This document shows, piece after piece, positions 16,231 to 64,000 of a stretch of 64,000 bases of DNA; within the stretch, counting starts at the first letter, position 1, and each line of letters opens with the position of its first letter. A model generated the notes under the pieces. That model did not search any database. It had not been told where the DNA came from and was given only the letters and a program-made list of their open reading frames with translations. Source of the stretch: Phorcus lineatus (Eukaryota; Mollusca; Gastropoda; Trochida; Trochidae); NCBI GenBank assembly GCA_921293015.1, contig OV121081.1, positions 3,906,001 through 3,970,000 on the forward strand. The letters are read 5' to 3'. The position numbers and the translations under genes were made by a program.

Positions 16231-16360
16231 TCATTTTCACAGGTGAAGATATTTTCCACGGGTGACAAATTTTCCACAGGTGACAAATTTTCCACAAGTA
16301 AAGATGTTTTCCACTGGTGACAAATTTTCCACAGGTAAAGATGTTTTCCACTGGTGACAA
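16231..16360. repeat. 18/20-bp minisatellite, about 7 units
   Basis: The units are variants of ATTTTCCACAGGTGACAA and TTTTCCACAGGTAAAGATG. On the plus strand they carry CAG|GTAAAG and CAG|GTGA strings. The array lies about 0.9 kb past the OXR1 stop, possibly in its 3' UTR. Confidence 0.8.
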
Positions 16361-16609
16361 AGGTGCGGACAAATGAAATCTTCTCCTTCCCTTCCTATAC
16401 AATTAAGCAAATGTATTCACAATTCTCTGCAATCTATACTATCAAGTGTAACCTTGAGATGGAGCTCTGTCAACCTCTCCTCCTATGCTGTACAATTCAT
16501 CAAATCTAGTCACACTACAGTGTAACCAACTCTATAGCAACAACTTATCAATCTGTACAACACACAAGTTGCTTGTACTGCGGTATTCAACATAGTTGCA
16601 CAATGTGTC

Positions 16610-17406: not shown

Positions 17407-20400
17407 CTGAAAATGAAAGATTACCTTAAACATACCTTATTGATAAGACGTTTAATAATCCTCAATGTTCTTGTACAATTGTACGCAGGGAATGATGAGT
17501 GCCCTGGAATGCAACATTACCGGGCAGTCTAAATGTTCTTGACTAAAACTGCCGACAAAAACTATAACATATTTTTGGGGGATGGGGGGTGACAGGGAAA
17601 TAAGAGGCTGCTAAGATGTTCACTTCACACACTGATGCATCCTTACACAGTGGGTTAAAGAGTCAAAGGCAAATCAATAAATAAAAGTTTCCTGATTTTG
17701 TCCAGGTAATGAACATATCAAGAGAAATACAATAAGCCCTTACTGTCCAGCTCCTATTGCCAAGCTCTCCTTGTTGCCCTTGATGAAGAAGTTATTCTCC
17801 CCCGTCCAGTGAAATACCTAAAAACAGCAATTACTAATGTGATTATCTTAAACAAATCTTGAACTAAATTCAGGCCTAAAATCTTTTTAGAAATCCCAAC
17901 TGCATCACCGTAAATAATTTTTGGGTACCAAATATCACATTTTTACTTTTTCCAGAGATGACTAAGTATGCAAGTACTTGACAAAAAACACCTTTAATAT
18001 TTACATTTTTTAGTTGGTAAACTATAAGTTGAACAAACATTAGCTCACCTTGAACTCTGGGTAGAATGTGTAGAGGAAACACTCGCCGGTGCCGTAGAAG
18101 TGGTCACTCATCTTGAAAGCACAGTTGGTCACAGCTCCAAACACCTGCAAACATTACTTCATTCATTCTTTTCTCCTTTCTCCTTGATAAACTTTACATA
18201 GTTACTTTTGTAAATAAATGAGAATGATGATCACCACAAACAATAAAAACTTATAGATATTGCTTGTTTTGACTTGATAACTTCTTTTGGAGTCACATTG
18301 TTAATATGTGTAGTACTTCACCACTGCACCAAATAATGCAACTTGTCACAAAAAGATTGATAAAGATAAAAATGCATTAAAGCCGTTGTTAAGCAATGTT
18401 TCAACATGAGGTGACATTTGAATGTTTAGGTGATGAAATTGTGACTACAAAAAGCATGATTCAGCCACGGCTACAACAAAGACAGTATTGCAAAGCAAGG
18501 TCACGTACGGTCACATTCAGTCTTAATTGCTGAAAAAGTGACTCAACAAGGATAATTCAGCGACAGCTGCCACAGACATTAGCGTTATAATTATAATTAA
18601 TATTGAAGCCGATATTGGAGATTTGGAGAGGACAGGATGAGCTCACGTGATGATTGGTGTCGGCAACCACTAGGAGGATAGGGCTGTCCACGTGACTCAT
18701 GTCCCGGTAAAGAGTCTTCAGACTGAAGCCGTGCACCTCGGTGCTGTAGATCAGGTTCCACGTGTACCCGATTGTCCGTGCTGGCATGTTCTGGGAGAGC
18801 TGTAACACAATGTGAGAACTGTATAGTTACAAAAAGAAAGTTTTTGAATATTTGGAATACCATGGGAGAAACAATAAAGTGATAAAATCCCTTTGTGAAT
18901 TCAATAGCACATGCAAGAATATTCATTAAGAAAAAAAATTCAATTAGAAGATGACTTTAAAAAAAATAATTAAATAATGATATATCAAAACTTTGACATA
19001 ATGCGGTTTAGTGTGCTTTTGGGTGCTTATAATTAAGCTAAAAGAAAATCCTAATCCTGTGTTGTAGACCTCACATGATGTTATTGTAACTTTTCCATTG
19101 AGCAATAAAACTATCATATAATACAGCTATTTCTATTAATACATATTGTTTTTCACCCTGCTGCTAATAATAAGCTTATATCCAGAGTAAGTAGTACAGA
19201 CCATTACATAACACACGCTGGACAGCTGTATGCCATGAAAGAAATCTGACCATGATCATGTAAGACATGAAGTTAACTGACCCCTGGGGCTGAAAATATA
19301 CTTCATGCTGACCTGATGACCTCACCTGGTTAGATGTCAAAGGTCATGCAGGTCATTCACACCAGGAGATTTACCAGCTTTGATAGGTAATCAAAATTGA
19401 TTTACCAGCTACTGAAGACAATGGACATTGGAAAAGAGTTATAACTGTTAGCTATCAAATAACAATTTAATAATAAAACATTTCATAAACATGGTCAAAG
19501 TTGTATCATATGAATATTATCTTTAAAAGCAACTACTTATATCAAAAAAGAAATAATCAAAATGTATCTACTTATCCAACCAAAATGAAGAGAAAGTCAT
19601 ACAATTCTGATCAACACTACATCTACTGTTTTGAAACTCATAATCTAAAAGCTTTTGTCATACAGAAATCAATTCTAATGTGAAAAAGTGGCCAAGTCCT
19701 GTGGATCTATTTCATAGCAATATAACATCCAAGTGGTATGTGTCTCCGCCATTTTCTAGTATTTACAAAAAAGAAAAAATGAAAAAAAATTATTTTTTAA
19801 AAAAGTGTTTAGTTATTAAACATAACTTTACTCAATAAATCAATTACATCATTTGCTAACCTCTATGGAAATGATTCATGTGCGTTGCGGCCAACATGTG
19901 CATGTTGACTAAACAAGATTTATAGTTTACATTATTACTAAGTAATATCAAAGCAAACTGAACAGATGAAAGATGTGTCAAACATAACGATGCACAATTT
20001 TTTCACCGATCCTAATTTTGCTATCCAGAACTTTTAATGCAGCCAATCTATCAATCAATCATTTATTCTCATATAACCACGAAGGTGGTACAAGAGCATA
20101 TACAACAATCATTTTATACAATAAATAATCACAAATATACATGATATATAATAAATACAGAATATTATACAATACAAGATGGCTGTCTAATTAGTTAGCT
20201 ATGTTTCAAGAGATTCTATTTTGGATAAAAATTTTGATAAGTAGCTAAATTGCTTAGTGTCATTTGTAGAAAATAGTTTAACAAAATTGTGACGGCTTGT
20301 ATACATTGAATCAATGGATAAAATATACATTTTCCTTGCATTGCAAAGACTTTTACATTTAATAAATATAATGAAATTCATCAGCAAAAGACGTGGATTG

Positions 20401-23400: not shown

Positions 23401-26400
23401 AATTTGAAAGTTTTTATCATATCATAGCCAATATCATAACAGCACTGCCATCAAGATTACCTGTGTGCAAGAAGCATGTGAGGTCTGACAGGGAAGTGTC
23501 AGGGGACCAGCTGACACCAGTGATTGACAGTCTCAACATGCATACGTCAATAACGTGACCTGCAATCTCTCCCAATGTGACGACACACTTTCCGATGTCA
23601 GGGACAGGAGAGCTAACAGACAGGTGGCTACTTTGAGACAGGGATAGCTTAACTTCGTGTGTTTTGATTACAAATTTTGAAAAATATTTTTGCAAAATTA
23701 TGTCAAAAGGATTGTTAAAAGTCCTGTCTGGCTCATAAGTTTGCACCAGGGTAACATAATTGGGTTTTTGGGATGGAGAGGAAGCAGAACTTACTTGTCT
23801 CTGGGAATGGAGAACCAGTACTCAGGTTTCTTCTTGGTGGTCCTGTAGGACTCAATCGGACAGGTCTGGGACACCTCCTTGTTCTTGGGGTGGCCCACTC
23901 GCAGACAAAGGTACAGAGGTGGGTCCTCCACACGCGCTGCTGGCCTCGCTATCAGCTCTGGCAGGTACAGGGTTAATGTTAATACACATCTTATATGGCT
24001 AAGAGGCATTGGATTTAAAAGATTGTTAGCATGGTCTACAGATAGGTAAAAGATGGTGACTTGTTATTTAGTGATACTTAGGTAATATTTCTAGTCACAG
24101 CATTCTGTATACATACTCAATATGAAAGACAATATTGTCATAATCATAAATATCTTGGTTTCATGTGTTCAAAGTTAATGAGGTTACCTGTTTCGGGACT
24201 TCATTTACTTAGATTTCACAGAAAAATCTTAACTTTAGCTAAGAAATCTAAAGAATTTAGCAATGAAATAACCTGAGGTAGAAGGATATTCCCTTTAGTA
24301 TTTGAGTTAGTTCATCTTATTCTACAGTAAGGATGTTAACGGCCTAGATTCTTAAAGCACTCTAATGTTAACAAATATACAGACAAAGAAATTAGCACTT
24401 AAAGAACTTGAAAAATCTGGGTTTTTAACTTGCATTTCTAGCATTATTGTTATGAAAATGTAAAAGTAAATTTAATCGAACATAGAAATATGTAGATCTT
24501 TATGAAGTTGGATTTTAACGTTGGTTAATTCTGAGACTGTCTCAATCTAAATATATCTGGCCCTTGTTGATCTCTTGTAAAGAATAAATAGATTACTGTT
24601 ATGGAGGAGATTTCTTAAAGGCATGCACACAGCTGAGGAACCAACTGTTAACTCACTGCAAACATCACCACTTAAGCAAGAACTTGTCATGCAATAATCA
24701 ACTGATGACTTGTTTGTTAGATTATTTCCAAAAAAACTAAAACATATCACATTCCAATAATATAACACAAAAAATTTGACACATATTTTACATTTTAGTT
24801 TTAACCTTAGCAATAATAAAATCATTAAAGAAAAGAAGCTTAAAGTAAATTGGTAATTTGAAAGAATGTATGGCGATTAAAAAACTAAGATACCTTATGG
24901 TTAATGCTTAAATTAAAGAGCTTCTTACACTTATAGGATTGCATACATAAATGTCCATTACCTAAATAATCATTTCCTACGTATATAGGTGTACGAGCGA
25001 TTTAGAGAGATGAAGAACCAATGTTATATGTACAGGTATTTGAGTCTTTCAAAACATCATATTTCTTCATATATATGTAACATTCTAACCACCATAGAGC
25101 TGGATATGTGTCGATGTTGAAATCCAGAAAACAAATCTTTACAACGATAAATGGAGAAATGACATGAAGAGAACAGATGTAAGCAAGAACTTCAAGACAA
25201 TGTCGTCACTCACAGAACCTCACAATAGAATAAACAACCATTTAATAAACACAAAAATGAAAGACACGTTTTTAAATTCAAATTGTGCAACTAAATAGCA
25301 GCATTTTGGTGACTTCACATGTGATGCATCTATAAAGGTTCTTTCTAGTTAACTGATGAATTAATTACTAAAATACCTTTGAAATGTAGGAAGTAATATC
25401 TTTTTTAGCAATTTTTTTTATCAAATTAATCAGATTTGAATAGAAAAACAAAAATGTGAGAGAAGAAAGTTGAGTGTATTGAGGACTTATGGTTGAAGTA
25501 ATGATTTGTATGATATTTGTTACAAGTTTCCACTTCAATCAGAAACAATCAATTAAACAGACAATTCAATTGAGATAAATGCTTTAAAATAATTTCATGC
25601 AATAAATTGATAAGTGCACAGTGGTATGTCTATCTTTAGCCTGATATAAGCATATAATACACCAAGACCCAACCTGAGGAATATTTACCTAAACCTGTAA
25701 TGCAAGAGGAAACATTAACATGTAAATGGTAAACGAGCTTGTTCATGTTACACCTCAAATACATGGGCTCACCACGTGCTTAATAACATTACCACAAGTT
25801 TGTTTTGGGGAAATAAATTTGATATTAGCAATACCATGAAATTGATTTTGCTGAAAAATTCACACATGATAGAGTACAAAATGTATATCAAATACAAAAT
25901 GTACATAATTCTTTATCTTAGATTTTGAAACAAAAATCATGCAAAATAAAAAAATTGACAACCCAAAAATATTTATTGAAATAGAATAGAAAATCAAGCC
26001 ATTCATAGATTATCTGAAATATGTCTTTTAACTGTATCCGTCTGATGAAAACAAATATCTGGTCATTCAAATTTAAAAAATTTTTAATCTACAACCCTCT
26101 CACATCGATGATATTAACAGAAAACTAATTAGAAAGGAAAACAAATGAGACCTATCTATAAATAAAGATGGAGAACAGTAACATGACACAGAGCATTTCT
26201 AACAAGAATCTCTAAAATAATCTGAGCTTATTTCAAGAATACTTGACCAAACGGAAGGAAAATCATTCTTCAGTGATCACATTGAGTGACATTTGTTTGG
26301 AAAAGTTATGATTATGAGAAATTATTATTATGTGAGTTTATGGACGCAGTCTATATCATATCCTTAATCCTGACAACATTTTACAGGAGTCTTTAAAAAG

Positions 26401-29400
26401 ATCTTGCAAAATTAATGGAGTGAAACATGTTAATCAACTCACTGTCGAATGTCTGGAAGAGTTCTGGTTTATCCGCAAGTTTGATGGCGCTCTCCACTTC
26501 CCGCACTCGGTCTGCCTGAAAAGAGACAATCGGGGTCTTGTCGGCAGATGTTACGACCACTTCACTGACATCTCCAGGGTTGAGTTGGTCTTCAGAGTCC
26601 TTGCGGAAAAGACCTGTGGCATAGTTGACAAAGTTACTGAGATGTTTGGCTGACGTTTGGAAGGGGCGAAAGCTTGCTGCATCTGGTTGGTCGGCCGCCG
26701 TCTGAGATTCTGAACTGATCACAGATCCAGTTTCATCTGCGACATTTCGAGGCTGGGGAGCTGAAGAGTCTGAAGGAGAACTTCCTCTGACAGAAACTGT
26801 TCCATCCTCGTTCTTGTCTATTGGGAGATACACAATACTGCCTATTCTGGTTTCGCTGGTCTCCTCTTCCTTTGACTGTTCACCTGCTGAGGGTTCATCA
26901 CTTGCTGCATTATTCACTATCACAGATTTTGGTTCTTCCCCAGACTGTGTCAAAGACAATTTGGGATCATCCTGAGAAAGAGAAAATTGGACAAGGTCTG
27001 AATTGTCAGTTGTCATCAAAGAACTGTCCCGATAACTGGTGTCACCTTTCCTGTGGCCCTTATCATCGGTCACATTTGCATCATCACTGAACCCCTCGTC
27101 CTCTGTAACATCAGTCCCAATACTTGAAATATCAAATATGTTTTCTGGAGGCAGAATGTCTGACACAGCACCTCCGATCTGACTAGAATTCTTCTCATCA
27201 CCCTGAGATGACTCAACTCCTTCTCCAATCTCAGTGTTTTTACTCTTCACAGCGCCCATTGTGCTGCTGGCAGTGTCTTCAACCTTGTCTGGTGGGGAAC
27301 TTTCAGGAATGGAAGATGGAGGCACCTGTTCAGGGTTCACAGGAGGAATGGAAGATGCAGGCGCCTGTTCAACATTTACAGGAGCTTCTGATTCAGAATC
27401 AACTTCCTCTGTTCCGGGAACCTTATCGTTTCCATTCAGATCTGGAGAATCTGGGGTCTCCCCGTGGTCGTGGGAGAGAACACCACACGAGCACACGCTG
27501 TTGCTCTCTGATTTGAGACTGTCGAGTGTGGTGGAGCGACTGGGAGCTGTTTTCTCAGCTTCTTCATCTGGTGGCGCTGCATCCACTACGTCCTTCACCT
27601 TGTCATGATGGTGGGCAAGGCCGTGGAACAACGGACAGCTCCTGTCGTGGTAGACCTCGGGGCGCGGGGAAAGGGGTTGGTCCTCACTAAAACAAAGGGG
27701 AGAGAGTTCATTTTTATGGAAGGGCTCAAACAAACAAATAACAAATCATTTCAGTGTCAATAACTCCTTGACTTGCAGCAGTTTTTGTTATAAGCGAAGA
27801 GTGGAAAGTTATGAGTAAAGCCAAAGGTGAAATCTTGTGGGTCAATTTCAAAGTTACAGGTTCTTAACCCTGTGCAAAATTAAAAATCAAAGCCCAAGAA
27901 GTGATGGATGTGTAACAAGTTATAAAATTGAAACCTTTCATTGTTGACCTATGTAGCATTAGTAAGCAAATAATCCAAAGATCTGTTAGACTTTCTGCAA
28001 AAGATTGAAATATTCAAGTAGCTTTAGCTTATATAAGGTTGTATAATGAATAACCTTGAATATATCTTGACAACATTAGTGAAAGCAGGTTTTAATGATA
28101 ACCATAACACATAGGCTACCACAAGCTGCTTTAAAAATTGATTCAATTATGTGATCAATAAGTGCAGAGGCAATTGATCGTTGAGCTGCTTGAAACCTGC
28201 TCAATATGAAGCCATATAACGAATAAGCAATTTCCAAATAACTCATAAATAAAAGCTTCCTGAAATATGAAAAATAAGTAAACAAGATTCTCTTGACAGA
28301 TTGTGGTGGTCCAAATGAGAAGTAGATTAACTTGATTAGAATAAATAATAACAGTCATTTGTAAATCTTCAAAAATTGTATGTTACGTGGCAGATATCAT
28401 GAGTAATGGCCAAATCTGGATATCCTTTTTGTTAAGATTTGATATCTGTAAACTGACCAGTAATCAAAGTAATCAACACTGATATATTCTGCAGCTAGTG
28501 TGGTAATTAAGCTGTTTAAGCTTTCACTAATTTTGAATTAGCTCTTTGTGCTATGATAGATATAGGTGTATCACACATTAACATTTGCTTAAAACAATCT
28601 ACAAAACTGCAAAAATCATAGCCCCGGAACTTACTCTTGAAGATGCATAAAACAACTTTGTGCTCAGAGTGAATATTACTTGGGCCCTTCTGTTCTAGCT
28701 TCTATTCAACCTTTCACTTAGAAAGAGTATCTAAAATAAATAGGTGGCATCACTTATAACAAAATTGTTCAGCAAAGAATTTTTCATGACCCTGTGGCCT
28801 CATGCTTACATCTCAGAAAATTGTCAAAGAACAATGAAGGACAAAGAGGTATACACATAATCACGTATAAAATTTAGTCAAAATCCTCTACTGGACAAAG
28901 TGAACTCAACCACTGCTAACACTTTAAATTAACATATCACACCGAAAACACATATAAGGACCCTTCTTCCCATCTCACCTCACCTGAGAAACTTGTGCCC
29001 TACCCGCTGTCTGCAGACCCTTATACCTCCACTGATCAACCAGAGTGGAGCTTTCACTCACTACATAAAACAATAGGAAACCCTCCCCCACATAATCAGT
29101 TCACAAAGAGGTTTTTAAATCTCCTACCCTTGATCAGGTAATTAGCCCAGCTTTACTCTGATGTAACACTGAGGCAAGCAGAGTCTCACAAGATGAGGTT
29201 TATGACTTACAATCTAATTGATAACATACAAAGTGGCAACATCCTAGAAAGTGCTGACAGTTGCTAATTTATACTTCAGATTGACCTTATCATACCGTCC
29301 TTACCCAGTTAAATAAACTTTGGGATGTTCATAATCAGATTAAAGAGCAAAATTTGATAGATGATTGTTTTTACTTGTTTAATGAGATCAGGATTTTTCT

Positions 29401-35400: not shown

Positions 35401-38400
35401 TCACAAACCTCTTGATCTGTTGCTGAACGCACTTACCACTGCGCTATCCGGTCCCCAAGGATTGTAGGAGTTCTGAGTGGATATGAATACCCGGATATAA
35501 CAATATTACATTCAGGTTAACTGGTCTTACAGAAAGCATGGAATTTTGGTAGAATTTTGAAGTATTGAATAATTATAATGATTAGAAAATTCAGGAAATA
35601 ACTGCATAAGTCTTCAATATTTCAAAACCTTCAAAAGTGGAATGAGTCCTTGATTCTATCTGAGAGTGTATACCCATGCAACTACATGTACAAACATTAA
35701 TTCTCATGTGGTGAAACAGTGAAGCTGTTATTCAGTACAAGCTTATCTACTTGTCAGCCTAAACCAAAGTAATGGTGCTACCAACCCAAATAGCCCTACG
35801 TGAAAAAAACCAAAGACACTTATATACATCGATAACAGGTTTTGGGCAGCAGAGTCTCAGCTTGATGTTTGACTATTTCTTGTCTCTCGTTTCTCTCAGG
35901 CCCCACAAAATTCTAAAAGTTAGAACCGAACCTCACCTTCTCTTCCCGCGGAGCCTCATTGCGGCAATGTCGTGATACATGGCAGCACTGATCACCATAT
36001 CCATCGGGGTGATCATCCCATAGGACTCCGCACCCTGCTCGATGACCAGCGGGTCAGACACGTTGGGGTCAAACATGACAGCGTTCGGGGTCACAATCAG
36101 CGTCCCTGTCACAACACCCTGCAACAACAGGAACAGGCATTTGTTTCCTTTCACTCCCTACTTCTGGGTGAAATTTGATGCACATTTGATCTATGAATAT
36201 GAAAACATTTTTTTTTTCCAACACTTCCTGTACAATCCTGTGATATGGTGCTTCAGTGGTTATCAGGTTGCAAAGCGGCACGTGAATGGATGTACAGCTT
36301 AAAAGCATACTTTAGATAGCATAAGTTGTAGGTCAGCTCCATGATTATAAAATAGGAACCTTTGATACCGTCTATGTCCCCATTCAAGTCTTGATCATAT
36401 GAATACACATAAATAACACAGAATCGGATGAATATAAATTAAAAAGACTAAGAAATTAATCTTAAGAAAAACGTTTTATCAATTTTGAAAACATCTTTCA
36501 TAGAATGAATTTTATCTTACATTGGCTCCAAGGTTAATTGCATTGTACAACTTTGATATTGATAAAAAATATTTAAGGGAGGGGAAAGTATTTCTGAACA
36601 AAGGGAATGCTGGACAAAGGGGCCATATGATACTTCTTGTAATGATAATTAACTACTTCCTTATTGATGAAATAAGATGTTTTCACTATTCATTAGCATC
36701 TATGATCCTCAAACTACACAGCTGAGTGTTCTACTTGAAAAACTGCATGAAAACAAAGAAAATGTTAGCTTTAATTACAATGAAATTGATATAGACACTG
36801 GATCTATTTGACATATTTAGATCTATAAAAAGTGTAATGCTGACGATGACATATCGGTTGACATCCAAGTCAACAGTAACAATCATCATTCATAATGGAA
36901 GAGGAAAATCTGGATTTTGTGCAATGATTGGCAATTGATGATGTAAGCTTGCTTGTGATGTTTGACATGAATATAATCTAAAAGGTTAGCAGTATGAGTA
37001 CAGGGATAATGAAGAAGACCATTTACCTCCTTTTTGTCCCATTTGCCCTTCATCTTGATAAATAGAAAAACAGTGTCACAACTATCGATTTATCAGCAGG
37101 TTTTTCTTCCTAAGTCCAAACATGAAGATCATGGACCTTTTTACTGATTGCGTCAGCAATATGATATACAAAAGTGGGAACTACACTCGATCATTTTCTG
37201 ATTGTTTTGGAATTTTAATAAATATTTTAAAAAATGATATTAAACAGTGATGATTCGGAAACCAGTCTTATGTCTTCTAATGGAAAGATTTAGGAACAAG
37301 GGGTGATAGAAATCAAGATCAGGGGCTGAAAATTATCCTTATCTATCCTTTTTGACCAATGCATTATCTAGTGCTGATCCCAAGAGATTCCTTCGAGTTG
37401 TACAGTCTCTTAGATTATATTCTCTCAAATATTCAATCAATCCTTCAGACTCCTAGTTATAACACTTCACTTGCCCTTCTTATTAAAGCCCTGAATGTCA
37501 TTCCTATTGGTGATATTATCAGTTGATCTTGATGAACTTTGAAAAAACTTGAAATACAAATGAATGAAGGCAACCTACCTGTCCATCAGTGATGTGTTTG
37601 ACATTGATCTTAATGAACCTCTCAAAGCACTCCTGGTCCAGTTGTTGAGCCTCCTCTTCCGAAAGTTTGTGGGGCAACTCTGGCTCCTTCTGGGAGGAGG
37701 TGGATAACTGTCTCTCCACGTGACCAGGCACCTTCTCTGGTGGGCGGTCCGCCATCCGCACCAGCGGGACATCCTGAAAGGGAAGAGGAAGAATATGAAG
37801 TATTAGGTAAATCATCCTGCAGAGAAAGGGAGAACATGAAGTACTTTGTAAAGCATCCTGCAGGGGAAAGGGAGAACATGAAGTACTTTGTAAAGCATCC
37901 TGCAGAGAAAGGGAGAACATGAAGTACTTTGTAAAGCATCCTGCAGGGGAAAGGGAGAACATGAAGTACTTTGTAAAGCATCCTGCAGGGGAAAGGGAGA
38001 ACATGAAGTACTTTGTAAAGCATCCTGCAGGGGAAAGGGAGAACATGAAGTACTTTGTAAAGCATCCTGCAAGGGAAAGGGAGAACATGAAGTACTTTGT
38101 AAAGCATCCTGCAAGGAAAAGGGAGAACATGTAATACTGTGTAAAGCATCCTGCAAAAGAAAGGGAGAACATGTAGTACTTTGTAAAGCATCCTGCAGGG
38201 GAAAGGGAGAACATAAAGTACTTTGTAAAGCATCCTGCAGGGGAAAGGGAGAACATGAAGTACTTTGTAAAGCATCCTGCAGGGGAAAGGGAGAACATGA
38301 AGTACTTTGTAAAGCATCCTGCAGGGGAAAGGGAGAGCATGAAGTACTTTGTAAAGCATCCTGCAGGGGAAAGGGAGAACATGAAGTACTTTGTAAAGCA

Positions 38401-41400
38401 TCCTGCAGGGGAAAGGGAGAACATGAAGTACTTTGTAAAGCATCCTGCAGGGGAAAGGGAGAACATGTAGTACTGTGTAAAGCATCCTGCAAGGGAAAGG
38501 GAGAACATGTAGTACTTTGTAAAGCATCCTGCAAGGGAAAGGGAGAACATGTAGTACTTTGTAAAGCATCTGCAAGGGAAAGGGAGAACATGTAGTACTT
38601 TGTAAAGCATCCTGCAAGGGAAAGGGAGAACATGAAGTACTTTGTAAAGCATCCTGCAAGGAAAAGGGAGAAGTCTAAATATGAAGTATAATTTGAAGCA
38701 TCCTGCATACACTATTCTTATTAAAAAAGTGAACACTAGTCATTTAAACTACATGTATGATTTACATTCCCTTGCTCTTTAACTTTCACAATTCAAGAAA
38801 ATAAACTCATTTTGAAATTATATAGTACTCTCATATATCAAGGAATCTATTTTACACCTTAAGAGATAATCTTACCGAGCATGAAAATAATAACTTTTAA
38901 ACAAATATACTCCTTCACCAAAAAAAAAAGGCCTTTTGACATTGAAAATATACTTATCACATGACAAGTGTTATCTTTTAAAATTAAAATTTAACTTGAT
39001 GAATGTGTCACTTTAAGAATACAACTTAATGAAGAACTGAATATACAAGGCACAAGTGTCAATTAACAGTCAAGCCGTTAAGAAATATCACTATGGCCAA
39101 TGCATTGAAACAGAAATATTTCACATTGCATATATAACTTTACACATTGCAAATTTTGACAACTTTAGAACTACTCAAAGTTGTTATGGATTTTAAAAAA
39201 TCCAACAAAATAAAAAAATCTTATGAGTATTTGAAATATTTCTTAAACTTTAGTTTTCAATCATATAGAAAAACTTTAAGTGAAAACCAACAGATCCTTC
39301 TGCATCACATACCTTAGCACCTCCTTTACCCTTTGTGAAAACTCCACAACATCGTAAACACACAACACATAAAGAAGTTGTGGCTTGGACAAACTGCATT
39401 GTGCCAACACATGGTTACATATGTCCAGAACACATTTCACAATATATAAGTATATAAAGTGTATATATATCTTGTGATGTATACAACAGGTGCCCTATGA
39501 CCCACTCCTATCATACGCTGACTGCTATCAGCTGCAGCAGATCAATATCTACCTGTCATTATACAGGTACATTAATACATCTGCTAGTGGTCTGGTGATT
39601 AGGGTTACATCACCAACACCAGGATTCCATTAAATCAGCCTCTCGTCATCTGCATACAGGTACATTGATACATCAGCTAATTGTCTGGGGATCTGAGTTA
39701 AACGTCATCCTCATGACTGCTTCATTTAAATGGAGCCACTTGTATCAGAGCAGAGAGAGTTTGAGAAGGTCAATATCTACCATTTCTTATATAGGTATCT
39801 CCTAAAAGAAAAAGTCTGATCAATGAAGATTTTCTCCCCCGATGTGTTGGTTAATTTGTATCTTTTCATTTGAATGACAATCAACATCAAATTGGTAAGC
39901 TTCCTTTTCTGCCTGTACTGTTATCCTTATCTTTCCTCTCAGCAAAGGAAATAATTTTCTTTATGAATTATCAACAGATGTCTCATATTTAAGGCTATAA
40001 CAATTGTATTGATAAATGTGTGGATGTCAAAAGCATTTTATAGCCTTTTAATGTTACATAACTTCTAGAACTTCCAGAACTACCATGAAGCATTCTGACA
40101 TTAGTATAACAAAGGATAGATCAGTTAACAAAGGATCAAGAACGTAAATTGTCTGAGTCATCACAGTTACAGAGACAGAGATGAAAGAATGCAATGGTAT
40201 CTAACTGAAATGTTTCAATGACAGGACACTTTAGCTATCCTTCACCATCTTCTCTGTAGTGTAAGACAGTAACAGTTGGAACAAAAAAAGATCTGTTGGC
40301 TACTCAATATGATACAGTTACAACTCAATTTGGAAAATTCTAAGAGTTACATTCCTAGATAGGTAAACAGGTTTTCTTAGTCCAATAATTACCTTCATGA
40401 CAGAATCAAATAGAAAACTAAACCACTCTGACCCTGGAGTGTGGCAGGAGACTGTGAGAGAGGGGGTTGAGGACGAGGACACTCACCACTCTGACCCTGG
40501 AGTCTGGCAGGAGACTGTGAGAGAGGGGGTCGAGGACAAGGACACTCACCACTCTTTAACATGGAGTCTGGCAGGAGACTGTGAGAGAGGTGGTCGAGGA
40601 CGAGGACACTCACACTCTGACCATGGAGTCTTGCAGGAAACTGTGAGAGAGGGGGTCGAGGACGAGGACACTCACACTCTGACCATGGAGTCTGGCAGGA
40701 GACAGTGAGAGAGGGGGTCGAGGACGAGGACACTCACCACTCTGACCCTGGAGTCTGGCAGGAGACTGTGAGAGAGGTGGTCGAGGACAAGGACACTCAC
40801 ACTCTGACCATGGAATCTGGCAGGAGACTGTGAGAGAGGGGGTCGAGGACAAGGACACTCACACTCTGACCCTGGAGTCTGGCAGGAGACTGTGAGAGAG
40901 GGGGTCGAGGACAAGGACACTCACACTCTGACCATGGAGTCTGGCAGGAGACTGTGAGAGGGGGGTCGAGGACGAGGACACTCACACTCTGACCATGGAG
41001 TCTGGCAGGAAACTGTGAGAGAGGGGGTCGAGGACGAGGACACTCACACTCTGACCATGGAGTCTGGCAGGAGACTGTGAGAGAGGGGGTCGAGGACGAA
41101 GACACTCACACTCTGACCATGGAGTCTGGCAGGAAACTGTGAGAGAGGGGGTCGAGGACGAGGACACTCACACTCTGACCCTGGAGTCTGGCAGGAGACT
41201 GTGAGAGAGGGGGTCGAGGACAAGGACACTCACACTCTGACCATGGAATCTGGCAGGAGACTGTGAGAGAGGGGGTCGAGGATGAGGACACTCACACTCT
41301 GACCATGGAGTCTGGCAGGAGACTGTGAGAGAGGGGGTCGAGGACGAGGACACTCACCACTCTGACCCTGGAGTCTGGCAGGAGACTGTGAGAGAGGGGG

Positions 41401-44400
41401 TCGAGGACGAGGACACTCACACTCTGACCATGGAGTCTGGCAGGAGACTGTGAGAGAGGGGGTCGAGGACGAGGACACTCACCACTCTGACCATGGAGTC
41501 TGGCAGGAGACTGTGAGAGAGGAGGACGAGGACAAGGACACTCACACTCTGACCCTGGAGTCTGGAAGGGGACTGTGAGAGAGGGGGTCGAGGACGAGAA
41601 CACTCATCACTCTGACCATGGAGTCTGGCAGGAGACTGTGAGAGAGGGGGTCGAGGACAAGGACACTCACCACTCTGACCATGGAGTCTGGCAGGAGACT
41701 GTGAGAGAGGAGGACGAGGACAAGGACACTCACACTCTGACCCTGGAGTCTGGAAGGAGATTGTGAGAGAGGGGGTCGAGGACAAGGACACTCACACTCT
41801 GACCCTGGAGTCTGGCAGGAGATTGTGAGAGAAGGGGTCAAGAAAACTCACCACTCTGACCTTGGAGTCTAGCGGGTGGTTGGAAGAGAAAAAGGAAAAA
41901 GATTTAGGATACTCACCACTCTGACCCTTGAGTCCGGAGGGGGACTGAGAGGAGGAGAGATGGATAGCTCGGGGGATGAAGGTTCTGGTTCCTCTGTACA
42001 CACATAATCTGGGTCTGGGATGTATAGAACCTGCAAAACATGAACAAAATAAGAGATTGTTGTCGAAATGACAGATATTTGGATCATGATGAATATTTGA
42101 AAAAATCTAATTCTTAAAACAGACAATTGGGTGGATATTCAAGTAGAAATACAAGAAGTCGGACATTTTCTTTTGGGGGATTTGTAGTAATTTGATAAGT
42201 TTCTCCAAAACTCTGATTTTATGAAAATGGAAAACCTTTGATTATGAATAGAAGTTTTTCTGGAAAAAAGTCAATGAACTTCTCTTTGACAACACAATAA
42301 GCTTGAAACAGCACTTGGCTACAAACATCTGAAAGACGATCACTCTCGGATTCTTCAATGACACATGAACACAACTAACACCCGTAAACAGCCTTTGAAC
42401 AAGATTAAGCTCTATGCCTACCTGTCCAGGGAAGATCATGCGAGAGACTAGTCTGTTGAGTTTCTTCAGCTCCGAGGGCGTGGTGTCATAGTGTGCCGCA
42501 ATACTCTCCAGACTGTCGCGACCTTTCACCTGTGTCAGGGTCAAAGACATGGTTAATACTTGTAATATTGTCACTAGGGAATCACATAATCTGCACTTGT
42601 ACAAGCACTTGCTCTTTTTGAGGGATTTGTGATCCCACTCCCTGAGTCTGGCACTTATAATCAGCACTGTCAGTACAAACACTTTATCAGCTCTGCCACC
42701 AAGGGATTGGGTGTTTGATCCAACAATCAACGATGTAACATATCAAATGGCAGGAATTTCAATTCAGCTTTACAAAAGATATGCTTGTTATCGTGTCTCA
42801 AGACAATCAAATCTCGTTGAAATCAGAAACTTTAGGAGCTGACTTGTCAAAAAGTAGATCAAATGCCGACAGAAGAATTACAGTAGCTTGAAATAATAAA
42901 ACAGACATCAGCCCCCTATTGATCAGACATATAGGACCATGTATGTATATATATATATATATATATATAAAAAAGATAATACTTTTAATCCTATTTTACA
43001 TCATTTTTTAACTATGACAAGACAAGTTTTATTAGTTTTCACTGTTGACAACTGTCCAAAAAGTGTTCATACTAACACTGTTTAACATTGCTGAGTCTCA
43101 TTATTGACATCAAGAATATAATTCATAATCCCTATCTTAACTAATCCAGGATAAAAGACCATTTACCTCATACAACAAAGTGCCTTTTGGTTGAGTTTTG
43201 GGCAACACCTTCTTCTCTGGGGAGGGGGGTTTCTCTGTGAGAGGTGCTTTATCCCCTGTGGTTCCTGGAAGGGAGGAGAGGAGGTCAGTGTCTGCAGGTG
43301 CCCTTCCAACAGGTGCCCCTTGTGCCCCAGACAGGGAGGAGAGGGCACTAGGGGCCGAGCCATAACCAGTGGAGTTAGTAGGGAGGAGGGTGACGGCGGT
43401 AGAGGTGGGGACAGGAACGGGGTCACTGCTGATGTACCACACCGACCGCTCTGAACCTGGCGACCAAGGTAATTGATGTTAGTGGTGTTAGTAGGAACTA
43501 AGGGAGACAATTAAATGATAAGAGGTGTTTGATGAAGAAGATTTTTTTTTAAATGTCAGTAGTGTTAGATGTTCTAGTGGAATTACAGAAAGACCAAAAA
43601 GTATTTCCAAAAGAAAATGTTAGAATCCTTAAATGAAATGATAAAAGGAAAACCAAAAACAGCATAAATGAAGTCACTATCCATGGTACTTACTCTCCTT
43701 GAGTAATTTTTAAACAAGGAAGTGTTGGTCTCGTAGCTTTCTAAAAGTGTATAATAAATAAAAACACAGCTACACCAAAAATGCTATTTTTGCAATTTCA
43801 ATGGAAAAAACCTGGATAAAAACTTTGCTTTGATTTTTTATAGCATGTAAGAGATATTCAAGACATGTTTTATTTCATACACGTTTGTTAGAACATTCGT
43901 AAGTAGAAGTTTTTTCTCTAAAATTTAACTATTTTTTAGCACATAGTTGTATGTAATTATCAAAAGGTAAATGCACAGAAACATTAATTATGGAACTAAC
44001 GTCTAATCTCTAAACTATGATTGATTTTTTTCAAATTCCAAATGCCTTCAAACAATTAGCGGACATTAAATACAATGACCAAAGTGATACTTTCAGGTAT
44101 GAGTTTTTTCAAAAATAATTATTATGTCACATATACAATAGTATATAAAATGTGCAGATGGCATATTATATTTGTTTCTTTGAAATCATGTTAAAGTTAA
44201 CTAACCTAGGGGAGATAGATCATTTCTTTACTGTAAAATAACAGATGTATTTCTAAAAATACTAGTTGTTCTTAGCATATTATGCCTGGTCAAATATACA
44301 AAACAATAATTATACCTGAATATGTTAACTTCCAGCAGTGTTACATTTGGTTAAGCACTATCCAAATCTTACTCTGACAACAAACTTAAACTGGCTAGTC

Positions 44401-47400
44401 GGCAAGTTCTTATTGCTAACCCATCTCCGGTTCTTAAAATTACTTTACTCTAATCTAACAAAAAAATTCTTTTGACCATGAGTATATCAGCAAGCCAAAT
44501 CATGCATGCTGTTCAAACTAAAGGGAGATAACTAGAGCAGGCTTGATAAAACAAGAAGTAGGCTGAATGATCAGCACCATCACTAATTTGTTATTCCTGA
44601 ATCTGTCTCGATCAATTGCTCCTAATCAAATCAATGCAGCTCAACAGTTTCCTTTTATCCCTCATGATAGAGCCGCCCAAGGAATCTCCAAGTATCTACA
44701 TGTATATTGAAACTTTATCTACACTTGTGAATGTAGACTTTGTAAGATGTATTCCCTGAGCGATGAAGCAGACCATTGTTGAAGTGATCAACATCATCTA
44801 TTATTAACTGCGGTCGACTGGCCGACAAGGAGGAAATCACACTCGTGCCTCTTCCTCTGTTCATGTAGACTCACAGGGGATTGTTGTGGAACCATTTACT
44901 CATTGTATATTTTCAAATTTAATGTTTTCTTTATGTAATTACATTATAACAAAATGTAACATATAAATTAATTGGTATCATTTATTCAGAAATTCTGAAA
45001 GTATTTTTTATGCATTACACATTCATTTTTTTTTCTTTATAATTTTTCTGAATTTATGAAAAGAATACTCCTTCATTGCTGCCCACATTCCAATACCTCC
45101 TTTGTAAGATCATTTATCTTATCAATTTTCATATATTCATTGCCTTCTCAAAGATGGATTTTGAAATATTGTACCTATTTGAATGATGATTTATCTGTTT
45201 ATAAACAAAAACTATCAAATTATCACTTTATTGATTCATAACATTCTTTTGTTTATCTACAGTCATAAATATTCAAATTCCTCCAAATCAACAGCTGCTA
45301 ACTTCAAAGTGTCTACAAATTCTGATGAGCCACATAACAGTAGTCACGAATTGTTAACAAAAGGAGATCTTTAAAACAAACAACCTGTTTTAAGAAAGCC
45401 TATCCCAGCATGTTTGTGAAGCAAAATGAAAATAACCCAGAAACTACCATAGGCCAAAGAAAATCGCTATTGGAGGATATCCACAAACATATTTTAGAAA
45501 CCATGAAAAAGGGTTAGTTAAACACCAACACCATTTATTTACAAACATCCTGTACAAATACATGCATACAGACATGCATCATTCCCCCTGCAGGTTTGCA
45601 TTGAACTTTACATATGCTGAAAAACTCTGGCCAGTTGCCACTCGATGCAAGGAGGCAGTTTAGAGCATGACTTCAACCTGTCATCTATATTCAATACCAC
45701 TGTCAATAGAGTATTTCTTGTATAACTTAAGCACATAAGTATTTTAGAGGAAAACATGATGAAGAAAGCAGGACATCAATCATATTTAGTGAAACTGACA
45801 CTATCCATCCCCATCCGACACTAAACGCCGTAGGTCCCTTAGGAAATTAGGCTCATATTATAACCATAAATCAATAAGTATTTCAGTTTCACCATAGAAA
45901 TCGCAAAAAGACACTGAAAATTTTCGGAGCCATCAATTTCAGGCCAGCAAAAGGAGACATGACCTGATATCTCCAATCATCTCTAACTAAAAAACATAGG
46001 AGCAGTATAAACATTAGAGAAAAGAAGGCAGTCACTTTTTTTCTACAACGGTACAGGGCACTGAGAAAAACATTGATTGTGGATGTTTTGAAGGGATGGA
46101 GAGTGCAGGGTTGGTTAGATTCGAGAGAGAAAGCTTGTTTGTTGGCAGAAAGTGGCAAGTGAAGCCCAACCAGGGGATGTGGGACAAGATGACTGTATGC
46201 GAGACTATCTCCCACTGTATTGATCTACAAGCTAATCAAGCTGCCTCCAGGCAACAAAACGCTCCTCTTACAAGCAGTCCAAGACAAACTTCTCTCTGCC
46301 TCATTCTTAATTACATGACACCATTCTCTGAACCTCCTGCGCTAACTGCAGGAAAAGTTGCAAATGTCAATACAAAGATGATTGATATTCAATAACAAAT
46401 ATGACTGTTGGTTTTAGATTCCATGGTCAAGGTTTAGTGATTTAAGATTTAATACCATTTCACCTGATTATAATACTTTAAAGTACAGCTGCTAAATCAG
46501 TTGCAGAGACAAAATCTTCAAAACTAATGTTGATAGAAGTTGGTGTGAAAACTCAAGAATTATCGGCAACAAAAAACTATGTAAGATGCATTGTAAAACA
46601 TTAAAGATTTGCACACAAACACAAAAGCATGCAGTTCTGCAGGTGAAGTTGTCAAACCTCCAGAGATTAAATCCACAATTGTTATGATAAGAATGGAAAC
46701 AAATAATCCTAGGCAGGTAACGCAAAAAAAAACATTATACATCTTGTGAGGTCCAATGTAATTAGGGCTCACCAGTGGTAAAGTGTCCTAAAATGTTACA
46801 TACCTTTTTGACTTCCATTAACTATTAGACTTGGTGCAGATTTCACAGGGCTGAGAGGTTCCTCATGACCATGGCTCTCACCATTATCATGCTCATGGTG
46901 TTTCTCATGTTTGTGGTGGTGATTGTGATGGTGATGCTTCAAGCGATAAAGAGCACCTTGAAGTCTTGACATGCCCTTTCGACTGGGGACATCAAAATCT
47001 TTGTCAGGACTCAAAGGGCTCTTTGGACTTAAAGGACTTTTTGGACTCGTGGGGCTTGTCGGACTTGTTGGACTCATTGGGCTTGTTGGACTTTTAGGAC
47101 CATCAAGATGACCATTCTGTTCATCTTCATATGCATGTTTGTGGTGATGGCGATGGTGATGATGATGATGATGCTTTAACCAAGACAGCGCTCCATGAAA
47201 TTTGGAGGTGCTATGACGTCCATTACTCCCGTCGGATCCTGGAGAGACCGGGCTTTGAAGAAGACTCTCGTTCTGATGGTTATCATTATTTGCTACATTA
47301 TCTTCATCCACTTCAAGAAAGTTGCCATGCTCTTGGTCTTCAAAGTGCTTTCCATGCTCATGATCACCCTCATGGTTGTGATGATGGTGATGTTTGAGGC

Positions 47401-50400
47401 GGGAGATGGCGCCTTGTAGCTTATGAGGGAAATGTAAATGCATTCTCTTATGGTGTTTCTTCTTAGGTGGGGACACAGAAAGTTCTGGTTCCATGGCTTC
47501 AATGGTATTCCTTGAAACATGTCCTTCCTCAATCCTCTGTTGCTCCATGTTATATCGTTTCTTCAGTCCATGACCAAAATATTTCCGATTGGAAAATATT
47601 TTTTCAGCACATCACAAGTACAACTTTCCAGGTTATCAATTTTACAATCAACGATATCAGGATAGTTGGTTTTCAATTGCACAGAAAAGCAAGGGATACA
47701 GCATCCATCCCTGCCAGTAATTCACATTAATGTATCTGGATTCTTATTCAAAATCATCAAACAATTGAAACACAGATAACTGGTGATATCTTGTTGATGA
47801 TAACACAAATACTATGGACCCAACCTGATTAGTCAATTGATGTGGTTGATTTACAATCACTGATACCAAAGAGAAAGTGACGATGAAGTCGTATTCATAT
47901 TTTTGTAAGAATTCCTGTTGATGTATTTTCTACAACAGCTGGTCACAAGTTAACAGTAGCTGTTTAAACAAGATTGTAAACAACAGCTTTCTTACGAGAA
48001 TTAATGCTTCCTCAAGCAGGTAGAAGATTATGCAGCCAACAGCCCAACACTCACAAGACAATAAACTATATTCAACTGCAAGGTTTTTATGAGAGAAACC
48101 TCCGTCTGAATAATGCATTCCTTGGACTAGACGCCCAACACACTGACCCACCTCTTATCAATAGCAGCAATATCTTGCTCTTGTCTCTTCTCTAAATAGC
48201 CAGTGTCCAGTTGACAAAGTTCAAATCACTGGTCAATCACCTTGAACAGGGCTGGCCACCTGACAACTGCCCAATCCTGCTGCAGTATGGAGTCTGATCT
48301 ACAAGTGTAGGTGTGCCTCAACCTGGCTGTACACACACAGGTTAAGTGTAAATGGTCCACTAGATATCTGGTTGGCCTCATCAATCAACTTTGAAAGCCT
48401 TAACACTTCCTGTAATAACCTTTAATCACCGTCAATACTAATGAACTATTAATCAGTTACTCAAATATATTAATCACTTTTCAAACAGTTCTTATTTTGC
48501 TAATCAAGACATGTTTGGTGTAAACAATCAAATTAATTTTGTTTGTTGGTGTAAAGAAATAGAAATTTTAGATTTAAATAAGTTCTCATGTGGAATACAT
48601 TTTAGAGCAAAAATCCTTTTTTTATTTCTTGCGGCAAGGACTGAAATAGATAGACAAACAAACCTAAGGCAACAACAAGTGCTTGTAAGAAGGTCGACCT
48701 AAAGACACATTTTTAAAATTTCCTAATGAAATCAACTTTTTTCCTCAAACAGTGTTAATCTACAGGAAACATGAAAATCTAACAAATGCATCCTTTTCTC
48801 TGTGATATAAGCTTATCCGGAATTACTTACACAAGAAAATCAAGAAATGAGTCAATAAATGTTGTATTGAGTTTCCTGACATAATCAGGCATCATGATAT
48901 AGTTACTAGCAAATCTAATCCTACCTTCAATTTAAAACTTACTTATTAGTCACTTTCAAACTTAATTAATAAATACTTTAAAATTTACCATCAAACCAGT
49001 ATAACACGTCTCTGATTTTCAAACTCACTAGCATTATCTCTTCATTATTCTAGATAATCTGTATCTATGCGTGCGCAAATCAGGCAAAAGCCACTGTCCC
49101 AACGGAGATCGACCCTTAATCTAGCATTTGAGAAATAGATTTGAATGGATTAATCCAATAGATGAAAGTTTAACTTTCAATGGGCTTACTGACATGAATA
49201 ATTTTAAACAGAGAGGAAAGGTTGTTTGATAAAGAGTATGAAAGTCGAATGGAGCCTAGTTAGTTAAGCGGCTTCTCAACACCTAGAAGGTCTGTGCTTG
49301 GTTCTGCATTGAATCTTAACCCAAAAGATGTTTAAAGATTGGAGTTGTTGCTTCCCTGCTTGGCATTCAGCATTATATGGACATAGTACACATTAACTGA
49401 CTCTACACACTGGCTGTTGGATATTAAACAACCAAACAGAAAATTTCAAAATTTAACCTGTACTACGGTCAATAAGGTAATAGATTCAATAATTAAATTA
49501 ACATTCTCATTATTTATTATTGGTCATCATTATCATCATTATTGGTAGCAGTAGACATTGAATAAACATCAATATCACTGCTTATCATGTTTACCTCCAA
49601 ATACTTATATAAGAGATTTGCCTGTCATGAAGGTCACGAGAATAGTTGGGTTACTATACAATGTGCCTACCTAGACACTCGCCTATCTATGGGGTTATAA
49701 CAACATTGGTGCTGTCAAAACCTTCTCATCTTTAATAGATCTCATCATTTTCATGTATTATCATAAATTATAAGGAAAAACATTCTAAGAATTCACAAAC
49801 ACACACTTGAGATTATGATGAATTGGATGTAAGTGATCAACACAACTCATTTTGAAAATTAACATATAATACAACACCATATTTATTTGAAAGTGGATGC
49901 TCAACGAAAACTCGATCAAGTCAGAATGATGTATGATTCTGTAGATAATCAGGTGATATTGATCATTAATTCAAATCAGCTGACAACAACAGAGCCCATG
50001 GTAAACAGTCAGTGGGCTGTGAGAATAGTAAACAACTCTAAAATTCTAAGAGCAAATATGTTTACTTCAGGGAAATGGTTAAGTTCAAAGTTCGTAAATA
50101 ATCACCAAGTTAAATTTGTTTAGTTTCTGAGAGACAAAATTTATCTAAATTGTTTTATAAGCAAAAGCACACTTTGTTATGTTGTTATTGTATATTTCAC
50201 TATATAGTAACAGGTCTCAATAAAAAGAAACGTTTATGTTAACCTAAAGAGGGATTGCAATTCTGATATTATTTCAATGAGAATCACCAGATGACAAGGG
50301 ATAAGTTAATGAAATAATAAAAATAAGATCAACAATGTTGACATACTTTCTTTTAATCACTGAACTTCAAAAGTTAGCTGTTGTGTTGATATATGCTAAT

Positions 50401-58716: not shown

Positions 58717-60945
58717 CGGAATTTTGGAATTCTTCAACAAGATTTTCTTTGAAACCAAAATATTTTACTGAAGCTTTTCTACTTATTTCTTGTAATGAGA
58801 AGTGCAAACCATGCAGGACTTTTGGCTGCCAATGTCTCAAATAGCTTATTGCACTTGCCAATCCACTGATCTTTTTATTTTCATCACCACAAGGAAAACG
58901 TGCATGTTCTGGTCACAGTACAGAGTATTTGGAGAACAAGTATGCCAAAAAAAACCTTAAATATGTCATGATTCCAGATAACATTCTTTGGTTGCCTCAT
59001 CAAACTGTGTAAAGTTAGAAGGGAATCAAGATGCAGCAGCTCTGGTAGAAGTTCAACTTTATATCACTGAGCACATGAGCAACACTTGGCAACATCATCA
59101 TTTCTCTCTGTGTGTACAATCTCTTCTATGGCACGGCCCACAATCCAATTGTCCATAAACACTTCTTCAAGAATTCATACACTACATTTTATTCAAAATA
59201 AATTTTTACAAAGTTTTTTTTAAGGTAATAGCGAATTTGAATAAGAAAGTCAAGTGAACACTCTAAATTCAATGCTGTCAAAATTTCAAAACATCCCCAT
59301 CAGACTGTCAGTGAGAACTCTCAAGATGATGGAACTTGTAAACAAACACAAGAATGAGATCCACTTGTCAGCCATCTTTCCTCCAGCAAACATCAAAGAT
59401 CTTGACCAGACCTTCACCTAACTCATCACTCACTTCCATACAAGGTCTTCTGTATGCTGTAGGGTGTCACAATAAAGCTAGGTGAAATTTAATCAAATCT
59501 CTACAGCCCCGTTCTCAAATCAAAATCTCAACATGTGACATGACTGGCCCATAAATACACCATAACTTATGACATAAACCATTACAAGGAGAAAAAGCCA
59601 CAGCCTTTCTTTGAACAAGGCCATTAAACAATGGCTGGATTAAAGCTGGGGTAAGATTCACAATTGTGCTAAGATTTTCTCATGCTATTATTTCTCTATA
59701 CACAGCATGTGCCTATCAGTCAGTTACATGGCTTCTTAATTGTCTTAAGTCAGGCATCCACAAACCACTAAGGACATAGAGCTGCCCATATTCATGATAA
59801 TGATCGCAAGCCAAGTTAGGGTGAGTTCCTTTTTTTAAATTCATTTTCAAAACATTTACTAATATTATGGTAACTGTAAATCAGTTTCTAACCATACATA
59901 AACAAAATTGTGACTCCTTTATGTAATTTTTGTGAAAACATTTTTTTATTAATATTCACTGTCACAAGCCATTCAAAACATTTGATACTATTTGATATTT
60001 GGAATGATGCTTAGAAATGTAATAAAGCCTAGTGAGTAACCAAAGTTGTCACTGACAACCTCATGTCCATAAAAACATCTTTAGAAGATTCTTACAACCA
60101 TCTTTTCATCAAAGCAGTGGCCATTCTTATGATTCTAAAGCAATCTAGTTTTCAAATCACTTAAACAATGTTGCTATGTCATGAAAATTGATATATAAAA
60201 ATACCTTAAATGAAACATCAATTTCTACATCATCAACAATTTTTGATGTGATTATTTGTAATAAATGCTTTCCTAATAAGTTGTATCAACCTTAACACAA
60301 ACATTGTTAAGTTGGCAAAGCATGACAAAGCACTAGACAAGGGAGGGGTGCAAAAACATCTACTTATTATTAAAGCATAAAAAGATGCCCCCACGCCCCT
60401 CTCAAAATTTAATTGTTCGATCATTTAGCTATCAAAAGATCATAAATCCATGACCAAGCTGTATATCTTACTGACCCTAGTAATTGTATGTTAAGTAAAA
60501 GAATAATAAGGATTAAAGTATTCCATCATAATTGGCAGATTGCAGTTTCAAACAAAACATTAATATATTGTCATTTACAATTCATAACAACATAAATTCA
60601 TATCCATAGTTATGCATTACAATGAGCTCAAAATATTCTTATTCCTGTACATGAGTGGATTATCATTGTCAAATCAGCAATTCAAAAAATTCGACAACAA
60701 AAAAGAACACCTATGACAATCAAATTCAGTAAAGAACAATGGGACATATTTCACAATACTTTTTTCACTTTAGCCCATCTAAACTCAGATGCGGTGTAAG
60801 TTTAGCTTTATGTGAATTCTTTCTCTGATAATACTGTCGCCTGGAAACTCTCCTATTTCCAGGTCAAATATCACAATGATGGTTTTCAAGATATATGAAG
60901 AATGGCAGAAATATGTATTATTAGCAAAATATAAGATATGAGACA
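58717..60945. other. 5' flank of OXR1 form B
   Basis: AT-rich sequence between the first coding exon and the 44-bp satellite. It should contain the 5' UTR and promoter, but I see no core promoter motif that I can support. Confidence 0.5.
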
Positions 60946-63900: not shown

Positions 63901-64000
63901 GTGTATTGTCTTCTGGCTCTGTTGGTACATGTAGCATGCATACAGTGTATTGTCTTCTGGCTCTGTTGGTGCATAAGGCATGCATGCAGTGTATTGTCTT
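60946..64000. repeat. 44-bp satellite, about 69 units, running off the right edge
   Basis: The unit is TGCATACAGTGTATTGTCTT, CTGGCGCTGTTGGTGCATGT, AGCA. Each unit contains the palindrome TGCATG-TAG-CATGCA. Two main types differ at GTATTGTCTTCTGG versus GTAATGACCTCTGG. The second type is common up to about 62400 and absent after about 62700. A two-unit block with GGTACATGTTACATGC followed by GGTGCATGTTATATGC recurs at about 61660, 62415 and 62545. The long frames on both strands exist because the repeat lacks stops; it is not a gene. Confidence 0.97.

Follow-up and report, generated by a model that had tools for sequence, protein, structure and literature searches.

Paired splice-border minisatellites at the two ends of one predicted intron in Phorcus lineatus: a probable, largely neutral 'mirage'

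Introduction

Why would both ends of a single intron be lined with copies of their own splice sites? The question is raised by a predicted intron in a minus-strand, putatively OXR1/NCOA7-like gene of the gastropod Phorcus lineatus. It lies in a window of 64,000 nt (the whole stretch of DNA analysed: positions 3,906,001 to 3,970,000 of the forward strand of contig OV121081.1, assembly GCA_921293015.1), and all coordinates below are counted from the first nucleotide of that window. A preliminary description of the window had pointed out a tandem array derived from a splice site at either end of this intron, and proposed either neutral growth or a brake on full-length mRNA tuned by copy number. 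The analysis presented here favors the former, and the intron probably carries a paired 'mirage' that arose through tandem duplication and is mostly neutral or nearly so. The term was given in lancelet Adh3 to tandem repeats that span exon-intron borders, with units of 10-72 bp (PMC3087553).

Two arrays in one intron

The intron is predicted to span 37774-41916 (minus strand, phase 0, 4143 nt) between coding exons B and A, its boundaries having been set from reading frames and splice signals, and this interval agrees exactly with the one first described. Direct observation covers both arrays, the resemblance of each to its own border, the splice signals they contain and the reading frames. The main features are listed below from upstream to downstream; splice scores, here and throughout, come from human frequency matrices and rank sites only roughly.

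41917-42030, minus strand: exon B, upstream of the intron (predicted), ending ...RVRV, with phase 0 at its end; acceptor score 9.45
41911-41916, minus strand: real donor GTGAGT of the predicted intron, score 10.29, with an in-frame TAG at intron nt 46-48
40424-41916, minus strand: donor-side array of 62/63-bp units, with 22 decoy donors carrying an intact GTGAGT and one mutated copy (41608)
38673-40423, minus strand: middle of the intron, outside both arrays (from repeat mapping)
37774-38672, minus strand: acceptor-side array of 42-bp units, with 21 decoy acceptors scoring 15.5-18.6 (real acceptor 18.3)
37579-37773, minus strand: exon A, downstream of the intron (predicted), starting DVPLVRM... 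and ending ...ITDGQ

The acceptor-side array was called by Tandem Repeats Finder at 37770-38672, with a 42-bp unit, 21.5 copies and 95% matches. In sense orientation the unit corresponds to an acceptor region: a pyrimidine tract is followed by CAG and then GATG, and about 38 of its nucleotides are of the intron side and only 4 of the exon side. The AG and a strong tract are retained in every one of the 21 decoy acceptors. Such sites are otherwise rare, as only 2 of 3527 sense-strand AG sites outside the intron score at least 15.4 (the real acceptor at 37773 and a site at 43264), compared with the 21 decoys inside. The inner copies are homogeneous, with a mean pairwise divergence of 4.4% among 17 gapless copies of 22 (a value that excludes both edge copies and three others, which have indels), and the edge copies are diverged at both ends.

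At the other end of the intron, Tandem Repeats Finder called an array at 40424-41839 (62 bp, 22.7 copies, 94% matches), and diverged copies of the repeat extend beyond this call, right up to the exon. On the sense strand the 62/63-bp unit comprises about 45 nt of exon end and about 17 nt of intron start around GTGAGT. Between the real donor and 40486, this hexamer is kept in 22 of 23 donor copies, the exception being copy 41608, where GT is replaced by AT. Seven of the 22 decoy donors score 10.29, equal to the real donor, and the remaining 15 score 6.70 because one G is missing at the junction. Outside the intron, sense-strand GT sites reach at least 10.29 in 16 of 3492 cases and at least 6.69 in 95 of 3492. 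Copies on the exon side of the array are diverged; the far copies (40486 and 40549) show no clear divergence, and the last one is merely cut short. Arrays that are homogeneous inside and diverged at the edges are the usual pattern of tandem-repeat turnover.

Likeness of each array to its own splice border

Counted to the exon edges, the two arrays occupy 899 + 1493 of the 4143 nt, or 57.7% of the intron, which bears out the preliminary figure of over half. Alignment of the copy at the real acceptor with the 42-bp unit shows identity in 34 of 43 columns, and alignment of the copy at the real donor with the 63-bp unit shows it in 46 of 64. When probes of 60 nt, centered on each border, were compared with the adjoining intron, the donor border scored 29.5 against the 3 kb downstream, compared with at most 15.5 in 47 controls, and the acceptor border scored 23.5 against the 3 kb upstream, compared with at most 12.5 in 52 controls. 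These results, together with the repeat calls, uphold the earlier claim that both intron ends hold arrays derived from splice sites, with units of 42 and 62 bp. Each array derives from its own border of the one intron, and it is in this sense that the different origins previously ascribed to them are right. An earlier set of similarity scores (donor 28.0, with 13.0 as the highest of 269 random windows; acceptor 40.0, with 12.0 as the highest of 272) was replaced by the 60-nt-probe test, the acceptor value having been inflated because its probe included the adjoining array copy.

A self-copy scan of 12 candidate borders gave large scores at no borders other than the two of this intron, the remaining ten scoring 17.5 or less; in this set the row for 18640 is off by a few bases, several borders are predicted only, and 43264 possibly lies inside an exon. 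The acceptor at 43264 showed a weaker excess (13.5, control maximum 11.0, n=39). Repeated strong splice sites on the sense strand were likewise found only in this intron's two arrays among the ten arrays tested, a set that left out four small ones (3250, 9683, 11671 and 48931). One of the tested arrays, at 27305-27384, contains a single sense-strand donor.

Probable formation as a paired mirage

These observations are well accommodated by two independent tandem duplications, one across the donor border and one across the acceptor border of the same intron. Slippage or unequal exchange would then have expanded each duplication to a minisatellite with some 22 copies. In both cases the original splice site would have remained at the exon edge, and therefore the additional copies would have become intronic. 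The spliceosome would mainly take the exon-proximal pair, and the copies would be nearly neutral. Decoys may perhaps be used at a low level, their products being removed by nonsense-mediated decay or, for two of the acceptors, gaining 28 or 42 codons. The mechanism of growth, normal splicing and near-neutrality are what we infer here from the arrays.

The arrays share several sequence features with lancelet mirages. The units include the border and adjoin the real exon, and many of them keep the AG or GT signals. Divergence of the edge copies is seen at either end of the acceptor array and, in the donor array, next to the exon; at the far end of the donor array it is not clear.

If the decoys were under selection, their splice signals should be less variable than the rest of the unit. 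No depletion of variants was detected in the signals of either array, both counts having low power because homogenization leaves few independent variants. In the acceptor array the CAG, which makes up 3 of 42 columns, holds 1 of the 11 distinct variants, and in the donor array GTGAGT, with 6 of 62 columns, holds 1 of 22. The acceptor count covered 20 of 22 copies (all but the one at the real acceptor and 38653 at the far edge), and the donor count covered 22 rows, including the mutated 41608, after removal of the real donor copy, copy 41851 and the cut-short last copy. The lone 'CAG' variant of the acceptor array reflects a choice of alignment within GG, and its AG is intact.

Several points weigh against a largely neutral origin. 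The AG and strong tract persist in 21 of 21 acceptors and GTGAGT in 22 of 23 donor copies, a retention that selection would fit too, and the test for selection just described is low-powered. Amplification of both borders of one intron also exceeds the described cases that were found. In the lancelet, it has been noted that the cryptic sites of mirages could be used, giving alternative or aberrant transcripts (PMC3087553), and for PGBD5 regular splicing was argued rather than demonstrated (PMC3902484).

Consequences of decoy use and alternative explanations

The preliminary description held that use of the decoys should give transcripts for nonsense-mediated decay. Reading past the real donor does meet an in-frame TAG at intron nt 46-48, just as it had stated (48 bp on), and the nearest decoy GTGAGT is 65 nt on. 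The TAG precedes it, and therefore all 22 decoy donors would include a premature stop. When the decoy acceptors are entered in phase 0, 15 of 21 give a stop within the extension and 4 of 21 a stop lying 46 nt short of where exon A ends, making 19 of 21 with a premature stop. The other two, near the real acceptor, would extend the exon by 84 and 126 nt, keeping the frame without a stop and adding 28 or 42 codons. The claim that decoy acceptors shift the frame thus holds for 19 of them and fails for these two. The wider claim of nonsense transcripts is correct as a count, but its significance is reduced by the frequency of stops in random non-coding stretches of the window, which contain one in frame within 48 nt in 63% of cases and within 65 nt in 73%. 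Since random stretches show stops at nearly the same rate, the stop and frame properties of the decoys are no argument for design.

These counts bear directly on a decoy brake, in which the copies would compete with the real sites and copy number would set the share of transcripts sent to nonsense-mediated decay. We consider such a brake unlikely. It could draw on 22 decoy donors, seven of which equal the real donor in score, and on 21 decoy acceptors of comparable strength, most of these decoys leading to stops, and there are precedents in human IFI6, where minisatellite units are reported to serve as donors, and in TERT, where splicing around an intronic minisatellite reportedly varies with copy number. 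However, stops turn up about as often as chance would give, two acceptors add in-frame sequence free of stops, 15 of 22 donors score below the real one, the signals show no variant depletion, and lancelet mirages are reported with regular splicing undisturbed. A brake is possible, and in this intron its case consists solely of the strong copies present and their stop codons.

A broader version, to which we give no greater credence, is a length-polymorphic decoy field, in which exon-like donor units and competing acceptors would together hold back or misdirect splicing, copy number setting the amount of full-length mRNA. The exon-like character of the units arises from an acceptor-like CACAG that stands 27-29 nt upstream of the donor in 18 of the 22 donor-side units, a spacing that makes each such unit exon-like. 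These sites score 10.1-14.6, compared with 9.45 for exon B's own acceptor, so the 18 units would appear to offer intronic acceptor-donor pairs of adequate strength.

The same anatomy invites the proposal of a decoy-exon array that causes intron detention, with the exon-like units holding splicing factors without being spliced, in the manner of the OGT decoy exons. Decoy exons are described for OGT, ARGLU1, SF3B1 and other longer retained introns (PMC12017769). The exon-like units are only 27-29 nt long, however, against 143-153 nt for the OGT decoy exon forms reported in that source, and they are predicted from sequence alone. A comparable acceptor-like site is, moreover, already present inside the real exon B, at 41944 (minus strand, 28 nt before the donor), where its score of 13.99 exceeds the 9.45 of the exon's acceptor at 42030, and the CACAG of the donor units was probably copied along from it. 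We therefore regard intron detention as improbable.

A further idea is that the pyrimidine-rich units attract a repressor (PTB, for example), which would loop or silence the ends of the intron, but this is very improbable. CTCTCT occurs at 14.1 per kb in the donor array, is absent from the acceptor array and occurs at 0.22 per kb elsewhere, and TTCTCC occurs at 22.3 per kb in the acceptor array, is absent from the donor array and occurs at 0.19 elsewhere; both motifs are ones that we take to resemble PTB sites. Duplication of any pyrimidine-rich border would yield such enrichment, however, and binding is putative. Long-range base pairing between the two arrays, drawing the intron ends together, was rejected and is the least credible of all, since the energy computed for pairing 400-nt pieces (-133.4, where 20 mononucleotide shuffles averaged -105.9 and went no lower than -118.0) gave a misleading signal because that control lost periodicity, and tiled shuffled units, which keep it, were equally low in 29 of 200 controls.

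The paired mirage is accordingly preferred. If the arrays are only that, they are a double example in a conserved gene, in which the copies of splice sites reach 22 donors and 21 acceptors. They would then provide a natural test of how the spliceosome selects the exon-proximal site when nearly identical ones compete with it, and also of whether such duplications seed new introns, as has been proposed. Should the decoys act after all, repeat number would be a dial for expression.

The gene and other features of the window

Three domain matches lie on the minus strand: LysM in the open frame spanning 42245-42742 (Pfam LysM, E 1.1e-09), TLDc at 18560-18826 (Pfam TLD, E 1.1e-10), and an additional TLD stretch at about 18046-18156. 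The gene is on this evidence OXR1/NCOA7-like, the order of LysM and TLDc being what the name OXR1 rests on. Exons A to C are presumably similar to vertebrate OXR1, the third of them being:

35937-36118, minus strand: exon C, the next predicted exon, in which the frame carries on from exon A

A Pfam scan of the three reverse frames of 1-29000 (E 0.01) returned TLD only, and was insensitive enough to miss a weak integrase match. That match is in an open frame at 9225-9485 (minus strand), which has a sub-threshold similarity to Integrase_H2C2 (22.5 bits, cut-off 25.5); the frame, resembling an integrase zinc-binding domain, is likely a transposon remnant. Two long open frames on the minus strand, at 26396-27745 (with a 39-bp in-frame repeat) and 46799-47611 (His-rich, with SP repeats), are perhaps coding exons of a low-complexity protein.

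Other repeats were seen in the window. A 145-bp tandem array at 5297-6714 (9.8 copies, 89% matches) has three donor-like sites and one acceptor-like site on the plus strand, and 16233-16361 carries three donor-like sites on the plus strand, opposite to the gene. A 44-bp array of 69.5 copies at 60944-64000 extends to the end of the window. Just past a predicted exon, two GGAGGTGAGGA donor-like sites at 22534 and 22443 (minus strand) lie 91 nt apart with similar flanks, and are perhaps a minimal border duplication; the 22534 donor had a self-copy score of 17.5, the highest of 40 controls being 16.5. The core of one array unit gave no matches when compared with viral contigs.

Comparison with known systems

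The preliminary description knew of no paired splice-site minisatellites. Cases at single borders are in fact described, in lancelet mirages and in human IFI6, and splice-site minisatellites as such are already known, so any novelty is limited to the pairing at both ends of one intron. No case of such pairing was found in the literature searched, a weak absence in that the original Adh3 paper and that of Zhuo et al. lay outside its coverage. The comparisons that follow reflect the available parts of the sources cited.

The decoy exon of OGT places splice sites inside an intron, where they compete with the real sites and hold up its removal (PMC12017769). It resembles the present arrays in having competing splice sites within an intron, but it is a single exon, is experimentally supported and is not described as a minisatellite in the available text. 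Intron 6 of TERT contains the minisatellite VNTR6-1, whose effect on splicing depends on its copy number (PMC3948165, PMC11830802). It differs in working through RNA pairing or a G-quadruplex and in lying more than 1 kb from the junctions, and a splice-site origin is not stated in the parts of these reports consulted.

Border repeats in human segmental duplications may create new introns, some through activation of cryptic splice sites (PMC2812944). Their units average 30 bp in four copies and were sought within exons, and no paired array is described in the available part of that work. Closer on the donor side is human IFI6, where minisatellite units act as donors, and the use of two downstream units leads to three mRNAs (PMC4526556, citing Turri et al. 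1995). Only the donor side is involved there, and the use of copies is reported, whereas in P. lineatus it is hypothetical.

Lancelet mirages remain the nearest parallel. In the globin genes they occur at the 3' end of an intron in BflGb6 and at the 5' end in BflGb9, and both kinds of border are noted as able to undergo the process (PMC3087553). Many of the BflGb6 units carry splice signals, and the inner units are homogenized but those at the edges are not (PMC3087553). Data for Adh3 and reverse transcription-polymerase chain reaction of the globins suggest that regular splicing is undisturbed (PMC3087553); mirages are also present in troponin C, which was later added to the undisturbed cases (PMC3902484). 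In PGBD5, mirages are named at 5' and 3' splice sites, and one gene model treats the repeats as exon (PMC3902484), but these repeats apparently lie on different introns. The P. lineatus arrays share with lancelet mirages the minisatellite-like duplication across an exon-intron border, and the range of unit sizes in Adh3 covers their units of 42 and 62/63 bp. They differ in scale and placement, as the BflGb6 mirage varies in length by haplotype, with 6 and 3 units (PMC3087553), whereas here both ends of one intron are amplified, to about 22 copies each.

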